This document shows, in pieces, positions 1 to 61,483 of a DNA stretch of 64,000 nt. The notes below the pieces were generated by a model. It was not told where the DNA came from. It did no database searches and saw nothing but the letters and a program-made list of their open reading frames with translations. The position numbers were made by a program, and so were the translations under genes. Position 1 is the stretch's first letter. Each line of letters opens with the position of its first letter. The stretch is from Oceaniferula flava (GTDB lineage: Bacteria; Verrucomicrobiota; Verrucomicrobiia; Verrucomicrobiales; Akkermansiaceae). The stretch lies in assembly GCF_016811075.1 (NCBI RefSeq), contig NZ_JAFBGL010000003.1, forward strand, positions 124,001-188,000, read 5' to 3'.

Positions 1-567
1 GATCTGCTCGTCATCGCTGAGTTCCAGGGTGAGCGCAGGTTTGCCGGCATCGAGGTGAGGGAGCAGTTTGTCGATGAGTTCGACCTCTTTTTTTGACTCT
101 TTGTCACCGCTCTTGGCTTTCTTAGCGCGGGATTCTTTGCGTTTCTGCAAGGCGGCGATGTCGGCGAGGATGAGTTCCGAGTTGATGATTTCGATGTCGC
201 GAATTGGATCAACACTGCCGAGTTCGTGAATGATGTCGTCATTATTAAAGCAGCGCACTACCTGGACGATGGCGTCGACTTCGCGGATGTTGGCGAGGAA
301 CTTGTTGCCAAGTCCGGCACCTTCAGAGGCTCCTTCCACCAGTCCGGCGATATCGACAAATTCGATCGCGGCGGGGATGATCTTCTGGGTCTTGCTGATC
401 TCGGCCATGACGTTCAAGCGTTCGTCCGGCACGGTGACCACGCCGACGTTGGGGTCGATGGTGCAAAATGGATAGTTGGCCGCCTCCGCATTGCGGGTGC
501 GGGTGACTGCATTAAAGAGTGTCGATTTTCCGACGTTGGGTAGACCTACGATTCCTGCCTTGAGCAT
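1..567 (-). CDS. ychF: Redox-regulated ATPase YchF, N-terminal 189 residues
   Basis: The gene is read leftwards from an ATG at 567 and runs off the left edge in frame, so only the N-terminal half is here (the family is about 365 residues). The P-loop GLPNVGKST is at residues 8-16, followed by the YchF-typical [10 protein letters not shown] and the G3 region [17 protein letters not shown]. YchF/OLA1 proteins are Obg-related but prefer ATP and bind ribosomes. The missing part should hold the NxxE specificity motif and the TGS domain. It is divergent from panD, with 86 bp between the two starts that can hold both promoters. Confidence 0.93.
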
Positions 568-49954: not shown

Positions 49955-50398
49955 ATGTTTCGGATGGGGTCATTTTTTTACAAGCATTTCAGCCGACGAC
50001 TTAACACGCCGTGCCGCCTCCAGAAGCGGGACGGCGTTCGTTTATCCAGGAATGAAATCGGAGACCTGGGTGAGCGCATCGCCTGCGATCACTTGCGCGC
50101 TGCAGGAGGCAAGGTGCTCTATCGCAACTACCGGGGGCCGAAAGGCGGCGAGGTGGATATCGTGCTGCGCGATGACGACACGCTGGCTTTTGTGGAGGTG
50201 AAAACACGCACCCGCCGAGGATACGGTCGACCGCTCGATGCGGTGGATGCCTCGAAGCAGGAGTTGATCGAACGTGGGGCGAACTCCTGGCTGCACCTGC
50301 TCGGACACCGCGATATGCCGTGGCGCTTTGATGTGGTGGAGATCATTCTCGAGGACGGAGAGCTGCCGGAGGTGACGGTGGTTCGGAATGCTTTTTGA
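49955..50398 (+). CDS. yraN: UPF0102/YraN-family nuclease-like protein
   Basis: The core (about residues 32-130) has NEIGDLGERIACDHLR, YRNYRGPKGGEVDIVLRD and LAFVEVKTRTR, the D-ExK pattern of the restriction-endonuclease-like fold. YraN proteins are widespread and their role is unresolved, perhaps DNA processing or repair. A 31-residue basic N-terminal extension is present if the ATG at 49955 is used; a later start is possible. Confidence 0.85.
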   Translation: MFRMGSFFYKHFSRRLNTPCRLQKRDGVRLSRNEIGDLGERIACDHLRAAGGKVLYRNYRGPKGGEVDIVLRDDDTLAFVEVKTRTRRGYGRPLDAVDASKQELIERGANSWLHLLGHRDMPWRFDVVEIILEDGELPEVTVVRNAF

Positions 50399-57579: not shown

Positions 57580-58617
57580 ATGATGAGTTTTACCTCCACA
57601 CACACCCACTCGTTTTCAGTCGATTTTAGTCTATTTCTTCGGAAAATGGTCGGCCTGCTCGCAGCCCTCAGCTGTTTCGCGGTAGCTCCCGTGGCGCAGG
57701 CCAAGCTGTTTCCTTTTAATGAGGCCAAGGCGCCTGCGACCAAGGAAGACCTGATGGCAATTCAGAATGCCTTGATGGAAAGCAGTAACCATGTCCGCAA
57801 GGCCACGGTGAGCATCTCTCTCGGTCAGGGCTTCGGCAGCGGAGTCATTATTTCTCCAGACGGATTGATCCTGACCGCGGCGCACGTCAGCGGCGGTGTG
57901 GACAAGGAGCTTACTGTGATCATGAACGATGGCACCAAGCATAAGGCGGTGTCGATGGGGCTGAACTCCACCACGGATGCAGCCATGATACGCATCGTCG
58001 ATGAGGGAAAATACCCTTATGTGGAGGTGAACAAGGAAAACGATTACAAGCTCGGCCACTGGGTGTTTGCTCTCGGCCACTCCGGCGGATTTGATCAGGA
58101 GCGCGGACCGGTGCTGCGCCTTGGCCGGATTGTCAAAGACTCGGAAACCACCTTGCATACCGACTGCAAAGTGATCGGTGGCGATTCCGGCGGTCCGCTT
58201 TTTGACATGTCTGGGAAATTGATCGGGATCCACAGTCGGGTCTCGGAAACTTTGGTGGAAAACATGCACGTGCCGATGCGCGAATACATTCGCCACTGGG
58301 ACAGCATGAAGAGCAATGAATTCATCGGCGACGGCCCCTTCGCCAAACGTCCGGTCAAGGGCTCCGGCTTCATCGGTCTGGGCACCAGCGATTCAGAAGA
58401 GGGATTGCTGGTCGGCAAAGTCGGCAAAGACACCCCCGCGGAAGAGGCCGGTGTGCAGGCAGGGGATATTCTTTTGTCCCTCAATGGCAAAGAGCTTGCT
58501 GATAAGGCTGCGTTCAAAGCCATCCTCAAAGAAATGGCAGAAGGAGACAAGGTGGAGTTGAAAATCTCCCGCCGTGGTGAACCTCTAACCATCGAGTTTA
58601 AACTGGGTAAACGTTAA
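57580..58617 (+). CDS. HtrA/DegP-like exported serine protease with one PDZ domain
   Basis: After a signal/anchor region (about 1-41) the trypsin domain (about 72-260) has the full triad: His102 in LTAAHV, Asp133 in TTDAAMI and Ser203 in GGDSGGP. A PDZ domain follows (about 268-345: GLLVGKVGKDTPAEEAGVQAGDILLSLNG). It should degrade or sense misfolded envelope proteins. I start at the first ATG (57580); ATG 57646 would give a shorter signal peptide. A degenerate paralogue follows after 62 bp on the same strand. Confidence 0.88.
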   Translation: MMSFTSTHTHSFSVDFSLFLRKMVGLLAALSCFAVAPVAQAKLFPFNEAKAPATKEDLMAIQNALMESSNHVRKATVSISLGQGFGSGVIISPDGLILTAAHVSGGVDKELTVIMNDGTKHKAVSMGLNSTTDAAMIRIVDEGKYPYVEVNKENDYKLGHWVFALGHSGGFDQERGPVLRLGRIVKDSETTLHTDCKVIGGDSGGPLFDMSGKLIGIHSRVSETLVENMHVPMREYIRHWDSMKSNEFIGDGPFAKRPVKGSGFIGLGTSDSEEGLLVGKVGKDTPAEEAGVQAGDILLSLNGKELADKAAFKAILKEMAEGDKVELKISRRGEPLTIEFKLGKR

Positions 58618-58679
58618 AAAATTGCTCAGCAGCACCTCTATTCCACGATTAGTTCTCTAAACTCCGACCTCTTTTTCCC

Positions 58680-59699
58680 ATGACCCGTTCCATTCTTACT
58701 TCCCTCACGATCATCCTTACCTCAGCAGCCATTCAGCCGCTGCTTGGTCAAAACGTGCTTCCCGGCGATCTCCGAATCAATGGTAAGACGGTATGGGAAG
58801 CCTTTGAACCCCAGCGGCAGGTGCTGCAGAAAAGCTCCGCGGTGATTTACACCGACGATCGGGCGCGCATCATGAAGATCTACGGCACCATCGTCAGCGA
58901 AGATGGTTATATCCTGACCAAGGCGAGCGAAATCGAGGGTTCCTCATCCTTGTCGCTGCGCATCGGGAGCGATATTTACCGTGAGGTGCAGGTGGTCGAT
59001 GTCGATCCTCAATGGGATGTGGCCATGCTGAAAATCAAACCTACCACGCCTTTAATTCCAGTCGAAATCAGCGATCAGAGTGATGTCCCTCAAGGGAGTT
59101 GGGTCATTTCCAACGGTTCGACCTCCCGCTCTAACCGTCGAGTGAAAGTGGGCATCGTGGGTGCCCATTCCCGCGGTGTGGCCGTTGATAATGGCGTCAT
59201 GTTAGGTGTGGTCCTCGGTGAGGACTCAGATAATGGTCTTGAGATCAAAGAACTATCCAAGGACGGAGGAGCGGAACAAGCGGGTTTGCAAAAAGGGGAT
59301 ATCCTGAAGTCTGTGGAAGGTCAGCCGATGCTGGAGCGCGAAGAACTGCTGAAGGCGGTGCAGGATAAAAAAGCCGGCGACAAGTTAGCCGTCGAGGTGG
59401 CCCGCGACGGTGAGATGATGAAGTTTGAGATTGAGCTCAAAGCTCGTCCCGGCGGCCCCAAACGACCTTCCCGCAACGATCAGATGGGCGGTGGCGCCAA
59501 GGCTCTCTCCGAGCGGAGCTCCGATTTTCCGCGCATTCTGCAGCACGATACCCCGGTCAGCAAGGACCGCATCGGCGGCCCGCTGCTGAACCTGGACGGC
59601 GTGTGTGTGGGGATGAATATCGCCCGCAACAGCCGCGTCGCCACCTATGCCATCCCCGCGCGCGAACTGAGTGAAATCATTGCTCGCTTGAAAAAATAG
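58680..59699 (+). CDS. Degenerate HtrA-like protein with a PDZ domain inside the protease domain
   Basis: A signal peptide (1-23) leads to the first half of a trypsin domain (about 50-165) with ILTKASEIEG where HtrA has LTNNHVV, so Ser83 replaces the His; Asp113 is kept in DPQWDVAMLKI. A PDZ domain (about 172-255) comes next, and only then the second half of the trypsin fold (282-335), where KDRIGGPLLNLDG stands for GNSGGPL, so Ile298 replaces the Ser. It should be proteolytically dead and may act as a partner or binding protein for the HtrA upstream. Confidence 0.78.
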   Translation: MTRSILTSLTIILTSAAIQPLLGQNVLPGDLRINGKTVWEAFEPQRQVLQKSSAVIYTDDRARIMKIYGTIVSEDGYILTKASEIEGSSSLSLRIGSDIYREVQVVDVDPQWDVAMLKIKPTTPLIPVEISDQSDVPQGSWVISNGSTSRSNRRVKVGIVGAHSRGVAVDNGVMLGVVLGEDSDNGLEIKELSKDGGAEQAGLQKGDILKSVEGQPMLEREELLKAVQDKKAGDKLAVEVARDGEMMKFEIELKARPGGPKRPSRNDQMGGGAKALSERSSDFPRILQHDTPVSKDRIGGPLLNLDGVCVGMNIARNSRVATYAIPARELSEIIARLKK

Positions 59700-59782
59700 C
59701 GGGTTCATCGTTTGGGTGAATATCTTGCGGGCAATTTTCCTTGTGCCGTGGCGAGGGTAACTGTCAGTGTGTGGCGAGTTAT

Positions 59783-61483
59783 ATGAATTCCACCAACTTC
59801 GCCAACCATCGCTCTGTATTTCTAAAGCTGCTTTATTCGGTCCTTCTTCTACCTTTAACAATAGGAACAGCTATGGCTGGGACCCTCGATGAGGGACTCG
59901 ATGCTGCGTTGGACCCTATAGCGAATGTTTTAGAGTCGATCATTTTTTATTCATTGCCTGTAGCTGGTCAGTCGCTACCTGTGATCCTGTTAGTGCTTGG
60001 AGGAACTGCCATTTTTCTCACGGTCTACTTCAAGTTCATCAACCTTCGCTCGGTGGGGTTGGCCATTAGAACGGCGAAAGGTAAATACACTCGTCCAGAT
60101 GCACCTGGACAAATTACTCATTTTCAAGCTCTGACAGCAGCTCTTTCTGCCACCGTGGGGTTAGGGAATATTGCGGGCGTTGCAGTAGCGGTTGGCCTTG
60201 GTGGACCAGGTGCAACATTTTGGATGATCCTGATGGGGCTTTGTGGAATGACGACGAAATTCTGTGAGTGCACACTTGGTGTCAAATTTCGGAAAATCGA
60301 TGATAAGGGCCGTGTTCATGGAGGGGCGATGTACTATCTCAGCCAAGGTCTTAAGGAAAAAGGCTATGGTAAACTTGGGGTAGGTTTAGCGATCTTCTTT
60401 GCCGTGATGTGTATCGGTGGTGCCATTGGGGCAGGTAACATGTTCCAAGCGAACCAAGCCGCCTCGCAGGTGAGCACTGCATTTGGAGTGTTTGAGGAAA
60501 GCAAAGTCGTATTTGGCTGTATTCTATCTGTTATTGTCGGCATGGTCATCATTGGTGGTATTGTCTCCATTGCTAGAGTGACTTCCATCCTCGTGCCCTT
60601 CATGTGCGGGGTTTATCTGATCGCCACATTGGCTATTCTGTTCACAAATATCGATAAAGTAGGAGACGCCTTCGCACAGATTATTACAGGTGCATTCAGC
60701 CCTATGGCTGTCGGTGGTGGCTTTGTCGGTGTGTTGATTCAAGGCATTAAACGGGCTGCCTTTTCCAATGAAGCCGGTATTGGTTCTGCTCCCATTGCTC
60801 ACTCAGCAGTAAAAACCGATAAGGCTGCGAGTGAAGGCTTGGTTGCCCTGTTGGAGCCATTCACGGATACCGTTGTAGTGTGTACCATGACTGCGCTGGT
60901 GCTGGTGGTAACTGGCGTATGGAAGGTCGATGCCGTGGTGAAAGATGATACCACAGCTCTCTATGCGAAGCCCGGTATTGAGGAGGTCGTCGTCGCTCAA
61001 GCTGTAGCAGGCGATGAATTGCGCTTGTTAGGTAAATCGGAAGATGGGAATTACGGGCAAGTATGGCGCGATGAGGGCGAACCAGTTTGGGTTGCTATGG
61101 AATCTGTCAATACGATCGAAGGTGTTGCTAAAACTTCGAGAGCTTTCAAAACTGAATTCACATGGTTCCCCAAAGTTCTGGCGATAGCCGTCTTGTTGTT
61201 TGCATTCTCCACCATGATTTCGTGGTCTTACTACGGAGAACAGGCTGTGATTTACCTTTGCGGCGGCCCGAATCCTATCGCGGTGTTACTGTATAAGCTC
61301 TTCTTTTGCGCTTTTGTCGTTGTTGGTTCGGTAGCTTCGCTGGGCAATGTCATCCGTGTGTCTGATGCGATGTTATTTGCGATGGTGTTCCCCAATATGA
61401 TTGGGCTCTATTTCTTGCTGCCAGTAGTGAAGAAAGAACTGGCAATTTTCCGTAAACACGTGGCAGAAATCGAGGGCAAGTAA
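59783..61483 (+). CDS. AGCS-family sodium:alanine/glycine symporter with SH3-like insertion
   Basis: The symporter (566 residues) has the AGCS signature around GPGATFWMILMGLCGMTTKFCE, then RAAFSNEAGIGSAPIAHSA and LEPFTDTVVVCTMTA. Unlike DagA/AlsT it carries an N-terminal signal-like segment and a soluble insertion of about 65 residues between late membrane helices (nt 60940-61140) that looks like a bacterial SH3 domain. The codons are more AT-rich than in neighbouring genes. It should import alanine or glycine with sodium. Start at ATG 59783; the nearby NdpA-like gene follows after 12 bp. Confidence 0.85.
   Translation: MNSTNFANHRSVFLKLLYSVLLLPLTIGTAMAGTLDEGLDAALDPIANVLESIIFYSLPVAGQSLPVILLVLGGTAIFLTVYFKFINLRSVGLAIRTAKGKYTRPDAPGQITHFQALTAALSATVGLGNIAGVAVAVGLGGPGATFWMILMGLCGMTTKFCECTLGVKFRKIDDKGRVHGGAMYYLSQGLKEKGYGKLGVGLAIFFAVMCIGGAIGAGNMFQANQAASQVSTAFGVFEESKVVFGCILSVIVGMVIIGGIVSIARVTSILVPFMCGVYLIATLAILFTNIDKVGDAFAQIITGAFSPMAVGGGFVGVLIQGIKRAAFSNEAGIGSAPIAHSAVKTDKAASEGLVALLEPFTDTVVVCTMTALVLVVTGVWKVDAVVKDDTTALYAKPGIEEVVVAQAVAGDELRLLGKSEDGNYGQVWRDEGEPVWVAMESVNTIEGVAKTSRAFKTEFTWFPKVLAIAVLLFAFSTMISWSYYGEQAVIYLCGGPNPIAVLLYKLFFCAFVVVGSVASLGNVIRVSDAMLFAMVFPNMIGLYFLLPVVKKELAIFRKHVAEIEGK

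Follow-up and report, generated by a model that had tools for sequence, protein, structure and literature searches.

In the 64,000-nucleotide window analysed here (the whole stretch of Oceaniferula flava contig NZ_JAFBGL010000003.1, positions 124,001 to 188,000), two HtrA-type genes follow one another in the same orientation on the + strand, 62 bases apart. Gene A (57580..58617, with its ATG at 57580) encodes an HtrA-type serine protease of 345 amino acids, in which the protease domain spans about residues 84-250 and a C-terminal PDZ domain residues 263-342. Gene B (58680..59699, 339 amino acids) encodes a dead HtrA with an internal PDZ domain, and both proteins start with a signal-like N-terminus, as judged by inspection. 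An earlier note, made from the letters alone, had described such a tandem of a live HtrA and a copy keeping only the catalytic Asp, and the reading frames and motifs confirm this description. The triad of A is intact, with H102 in ILTAAHV, D133 in TTDAAM and S203 in GGDSGGPLF; B carries Ser83, Asp113 and Ile298 at the triad positions, Ser83 and Ile298 occupying those of His and Ser.

The best Trypsin_2 stretch assigned to B by Pfam covers residues 69-165 (profile positions 3-108 of 144) and PDZ_2 covers residues 175-253, and no Pfam families besides Trypsin_2 and PDZ were found on its 339 residues. None of the 23 listed HtrA families of NCBIfam reached its cut-off on B, the best being TIGR02037 with 114 bits vs a cut-off of 416. 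Compared with the HtrA proteases of MEROPS S1C, B has the chymotrypsin-like HtrA protease fold in its predicted structure, and it lacks both the His-Asp-Ser triad and a PDZ domain placed after the protease domain.

A pattern scan of genome contigs confirmed 140 relatives of B, and the best 80 of the 140 loci were kept as named loci, which together with the window make up 81 rows. All 80 are labelled as Verrucomicrobiota or as genera of that phylum (Rubritalea, Roseibacillus, Haloferula, Luteolibacter and others). The catalytic His of B is replaced by Ser in 81 of 81 rows and the Asp is retained in every one of them, while the position of the catalytic Ser is taken by V (43 rows), M (19), I (8), Q (4), E (3), T (3) or C (1), and never by Ser. 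R153, R154 and R165 are each conserved in all 81 rows, and Q288 in 71. The intact triad of A was found in 79 of 80 A rows, and the single gap fits L041, which is truncated by its contig end. In a further 26 more diverse B rows, picked from matches to B, the His position is Ser in 23 and Ala, Thr and Val in one each, with no His; the Asp is retained in 25; the arginine equivalent to R165 is present in 25 and replaced by Lys in one; and the Ser position holds C (11), M (5), I (3), V (3), A (2), T (1) or S (1). The single diverse row with Ser at the old nucleophile position, L132:2722-3654 (ESGGP), has Ser at the His position as well.

Position of the PDZ domain in gene B

In a phmmer comparison of B with a DegP-like chain, B residues 69-168 matched chain residues 100-198, B residues 277-316 matched chain residues 196-235 (weak alone, at 11.9 bits), and B residues 173-258 matched a later PDZ domain of the chain at 281-366. 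Segments that are adjacent in the DegP-like chain are thus about 108 residues apart in B, which indicates that its PDZ domain sits between segments contiguous in a normal HtrA. The AlphaFold2 model of B, built on a 65-row alignment, reached a predicted local distance difference test score (pLDDT) of 90.4 and a predicted template modelling score (pTM) of 0.78. Its best match in VIA, which realigns the top Foldseek matches only and has families beyond these outside its scope, was DegS delta-PDZ (Z 24.8, root-mean-square deviation 3.8, 189 aligned residues), the alignment spanning residues 24..339 of the model vs 37..250 of the DegS delta-PDZ chain. The Foldseek superpositions themselves were poor overall, the 50 listed rows having template modelling scores near 0.3-0.4, with MucD (8k2y) as the best row; this is expected from the altered domain order, and the VIA alignment was relied on instead. 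Taken together, the AlphaFold2 and VIA results indicate that residues ~24-167 and 280-339 of B build one canonical protease domain.

The first part of this domain (residues 24-167, 58749..59180, + strand) ends in the arginine R165, which aligns with the sensor residue Arg178 of DegS in 15 of 15 B rows when 15 A and 15 B rows are aligned with E. coli DegS and DegQ. The PDZ domain (residues 175-253, 59202..59438, +) begins within ~10 residues after R165. Loop L3 of DegS comprises residues 176-189 (PMC11642142), and the PDZ domain of B falls into this loop, inside the second barrel and not between the barrels; in the model, it is located in L3 directly after the sensor arginine. It is followed by a family-specific motif, RNDxMSG...SxRRxxF (residues 265-283, 59472..59528, +), between the PDZ domain and the remaining protease domain, and then by residues 280-339 (59517..59696, +), which make up the rest of the dead protease and have Ile298 at the nucleophile position.

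The earlier note had placed the PDZ domain between the two halves of the protease. The domain is indeed internal and precedes residues 280-339, but the point of insertion has to be moved from between the barrels into L3 of the second. Neither of the outcomes that the note had named as refuting came about: in the predicted structure, the trypsin fold is indeed completed by residues 280-339, and the PDZ domain is not a plain C-terminal one. A search for homologues of the same domain order, which the note had also proposed, recovered the succession of first part, PDZ and second part in every one of the 81 rows, so that the arrangement is not a matter of chance. The rows of alignment A2 were hand-chosen as relatives of B, and their common domain order is not an independent sample.

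Linkage, fusions and distribution of the pair

In 79 of the 80 named loci, the gene immediately upstream of B, in the same orientation, is A (75 automatic calls, plus four with longer start overlaps from the same listing), and the single unlinked locus, L045, begins at a contig end. The two genes overlap in 67 of the 75 automatically called loci, with start codons assigned mechanically, which suggests that their translation may be coupled. Among the window frames beyond position 50000, frames antisense to A or B being uncounted, no other gene was found near B in more than eight of the 80 loci. A transporter-like gene downstream of B (59741-61483), presumably an amino-acid carrier, occurs near B in only 8/80.

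Across 58 relative genomes, B was present in 49 (39 of the 45 good ones) and A in 50 (40 of the 45 good ones). A partner within 3.5 kilobases on the same strand accompanied 93 of 99 B matches and 91 of 101 A matches, with A first in 90 pairings and second in three; at least two of these three (L126 and L134) consist of a lone B-type gene ahead of an A-B fusion. Five of the six lone B matches lie at contig ends or are fragments, the sixth (G055) being a real exception, and nine of the ten lone A matches are weaker (E 7.9e-46 or worse), including the fused L005 and probably canonical HtrAs. The named loci and the G genomes overlap (e.g. L038 and contig 71 of G008), and their counts are not additive.

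Fusions of A and B were looked for in 20 stretches chosen partly for long frames, and ten of them encode both proteins as a single frame (L118, L119, L120, L121, L126, L127, L128, L129, L130 and L136), the first part of B being undetected by the models in L128 and L136. A second batch of stretches added the fusions L170, L173, L174, L176, L177 and L180, the last without a PDZ domain, and in the fusion L175 the order is reversed, with B before A. The L180 protein (L180:1124-3919, 932 amino acids) combines an active protease, a dead B-like part without a detected PDZ domain and a C-terminal SASA (sialic-acid-specific acetylesterase) domain. At L126:2169-5977, a B-like protein with ~270 N-terminal residues lacking a Pfam match stands directly before an A-B fusion, and L134 is similar.

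The O. flava genome itself has a second A-B pair on contig 7 (L002). Its contig 8 encodes a fusion of 545 amino acids (L005:328-1962), in which an active HtrA-like domain is joined to a dead B-like domain (LTKASE, no Ser) and a PDZ domain was found in neither. Contigs 6 and 10 (L004 and L007) encode further HtrAs, which have GNSGGP and at least two PDZ domains, and A and B are therefore not the only HtrAs of this genome.

In genus g3 of the same family (genomes of 2.2-3.5 megabases), core-type A is a protease domain alone, of 246-254 amino acids, and its B keeps the inserted PDZ domain. This combination was found in 13 of 13 g3 genomes with core-type B (12 two-gene loci and the fusion G280), each of which also carries a second full-length B. 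Nine other g3 genomes have no full-length B among the matches listed (G015, G107, G124, G160, G192, G238, G245, G248 and G331); absence from these while close relatives have two pairs suggests that B may have been lost in some lineages.

In all, 288 genomes of the phylum were scanned with the diverse B alignment, scoring up to eight first-look candidates per genome, and 40 genomes gave no match. Among the matches listed, full-length B occurs in two families of the same taxonomic order, f1 and f4, and, outside the class, in family f38 (genomes G141 and G283), and the remaining listed matches are partial; B is also present in families f2, f3 and f6 of the same order. In a tree of the protease parts, one branch sets apart all 27 B rows and a second branch all 17 A rows, both with support of 100/99, and matching sub-groups appear in the A and B halves (e.g. 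L122 with L123 and L133). This pattern suggests a single insertion event and joint duplication of A with B. A single origin for each of the two is favoured but not proved, as the tree includes no more than four canonical HtrAs and came with a warning that long branches join in it, namely those of five single rows and of the two groups A and B. The distances of A and B correlate as well (Spearman 0.73, 3159 pairs), which is not counted as support because shared ancestry alone would yield the same.

A proposed division of sensing and cutting between two proteins

A bacterial stress protease standing beside a dead copy with a PDZ domain inside its fold suggests a split of cutting and sensing between two partner proteins. 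We consider it fairly probable that the two proteins make up an envelope protease of two parts, in which A cuts and B is the sensing and activating partner in a mixed complex. A would supply the active site, and B, as a dead HtrA protomer, would bind A, the simplest form being a mixed, trimer-like assembly. The PDZ domain of B would bind the C-termini of substrates or stress-signal proteins, and the bound ligand would act straight into L3, beside the sensor arginine, and from there on the LD loop of the neighbouring A, switching A on; B might also hand substrate to A. In DegS, the signal passes from the PDZ domain to L3 and, by contact of Arg178 with the LD' loop, on to the adjacent subunit (PMC11642142). 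A mixed complex with B as the sensor and A as the cutting partner is suggested by the linkage, by fusions in both orders and by the PDZ-less A of one genus. A role of B on its neighbour is suggested by the loss of His and Ser in all 81 rows while the L3 arginine is kept in all of them. From these patterns we infer the A-B complex, its ligand, activation in trans and whether B turns A on or off. The suggestion, made from the window alone, that the dead copy acts together with the live one has gained support from comparative sequence data: the 79/80 linkage, the fusions, the parallel sub-groups in the tree and the PDZ-less A in g3 are all consistent with it.

Several observations weigh against this division of labour. 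A PDZ domain was detected on A itself in 79 of the 80 named-locus rows, so that the PDZ domain of B is mostly not the sole sensor, and the A of the second pair in g3 has one where examined (L169 and L171). The fused L005 and L180, with no PDZ domain detected at all, indicate that the domain is not essential in every version of the system. Across 15 rows of A, the positions of the DegS LD residues 161, 162 and 164 show no conservation, and the L3 arginine of B might be kept for folding rather than for signalling. In G055, the only clear case of its kind, A and B lie on different contigs (C46:106897-107823 and C38:18697-19320). The linked A-B model has low confidence (pLDDT 71.4, pTM 0.57, 11-row alignment A7), and its packing was left unused; A7 was the only one of six A-B alignments with its rows placed correctly, and A4, A5, A6, A8 and A9 were dropped because identities and invariant columns showed rows in the wrong half. 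In the MamE-MamO system, contact between the two proteins was not detected by the authors of PMC4794232.

Four other explanations deserve consideration. B could be an inhibitor or brake, a dead protomer that fills places in the A oligomer and keeps A off until its PDZ domain is engaged. The linkage, the fusions and the lost catalytic residues fit this too, and the contacts between unliganded PDZ and L3 in DegS are inhibitory (PMC11642142); however, where inhibitor and enzyme are joined for good in a single chain (L118, L170, L175), a release step is needed, and a PDZ-less A beside a PDZ-bearing B points to a positive job for B, so that we regard a brake as unlikely. Similarly improbable is a B that no longer acts on A and serves as a stand-alone chaperone, scaffold or ligand-binding protein, its adjacency being operon history. 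For this speak the metal binding gained by the pseudo-HtrA MamO (PMC4794232) and the strongly conserved motifs of its own that B carries (RNDxMSG, GMNIAR and the LD arginines); yet the A-B linkage persists while other window neighbours are not kept, and the fusions, once reversed, and the parallel sub-groups speak against it.

It is very unlikely that B works as an enzyme through a newly evolved active site, e.g. one built on Lys81/Ser83 or on a Cys or Ser where the nucleophile used to be. All 65 alignment rows share K81 and S83, and the old Ser position holds Cys in 11 and Ser in one (L132) of the 26 diverse rows; against this, no row of either set has a His at the His position, and the core rows never have Ser at that of the nucleophile. 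These residue counts likewise make a B with some other nucleophile unlikely. That B has a plain C-terminal PDZ domain or is a gene-prediction artefact, residues 280-339 not being protease, is hardly credible: no supporting point was found, and a plain C-terminal PDZ is ruled out by the high-confidence model and its match to DegS delta-PDZ over residues 24-339, by the phmmer segments and by the shared order of all 81 rows.

Pairing of a live and a dead HtrA is already known, and it is the architecture of B that is unusual. As in A/B, a dead HtrA adjoins a live one in MamE/MamO of magnetotactic bacteria, two HtrA homologues in one genomic island, of which MamO activates MamE proteolysis non-catalytically; MamO is described with Thr as the nucleophile, the mutated triad residues H116 and D149 present, a C-terminal TauE-like domain and metal binding (PMC4794232). 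Unlike MamO, B has no C-terminal TauE-like (transporter-like) domain, and it scores 42.0 bits vs the NCBIfam MamO cut-off of 800. By analogy, A/B would work most like MamE/MamO, yet it lies outside the MamO family. With DegS, DegP, DegQ and MucD (S1C), B shares the protease fold and the L3 arginine, but it differs from them in its lost active site, its PDZ domain in L3 instead of at the C-terminus, and its adjoining partner gene. In plants and algae, the inactive protease domain of AtDeg7 is involved in trimerization, and Deg7 of C. reinhardtii has the order PD-PDZ-PDZ-PDia-PDZ-PDZ (PMC3473262). Whereas the PDZ domains of Deg7 follow its protease domains, that of B lies inside the dead one. 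An internal PDZ domain also gates CtpB/Prc of family S41, as well as RseP, and these proteases resemble B in this respect and differ from it in their unrelated protease folds and live active sites. No earlier description of a PDZ domain inside an S1C protease domain, or of the A/B pair, was found in the literature searched, a range that had bioRxiv and most subscription journals outside it and the microbial PDZ survey PMC6411480 in part.

The division of sensing and cutting would be most specific in the form of a split HtrA, with the sensor PDZ domain in L3 of a dead protomer whose sole job is to switch its live neighbour, a system that probably arose once in Verrucomicrobiota and now takes the form of two genes, of A-B and B-A fusions, and of pairs whose A is PDZ-less; we give this fuller version a chance somewhat short of even. 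If true, the sender and the receiver of the HtrA signal would be separated, with the PDZ domain covalently wired into L3, and how the signal crosses between HtrA subunits, an open question, could be tested directly with two separable proteins. Among Verrucomicrobiota, proteins that match Do-protease models may be unable to cut, as all 26 diverse B rows match TIGR02037; a single pattern scan was enough to confirm 140 relatives of B.
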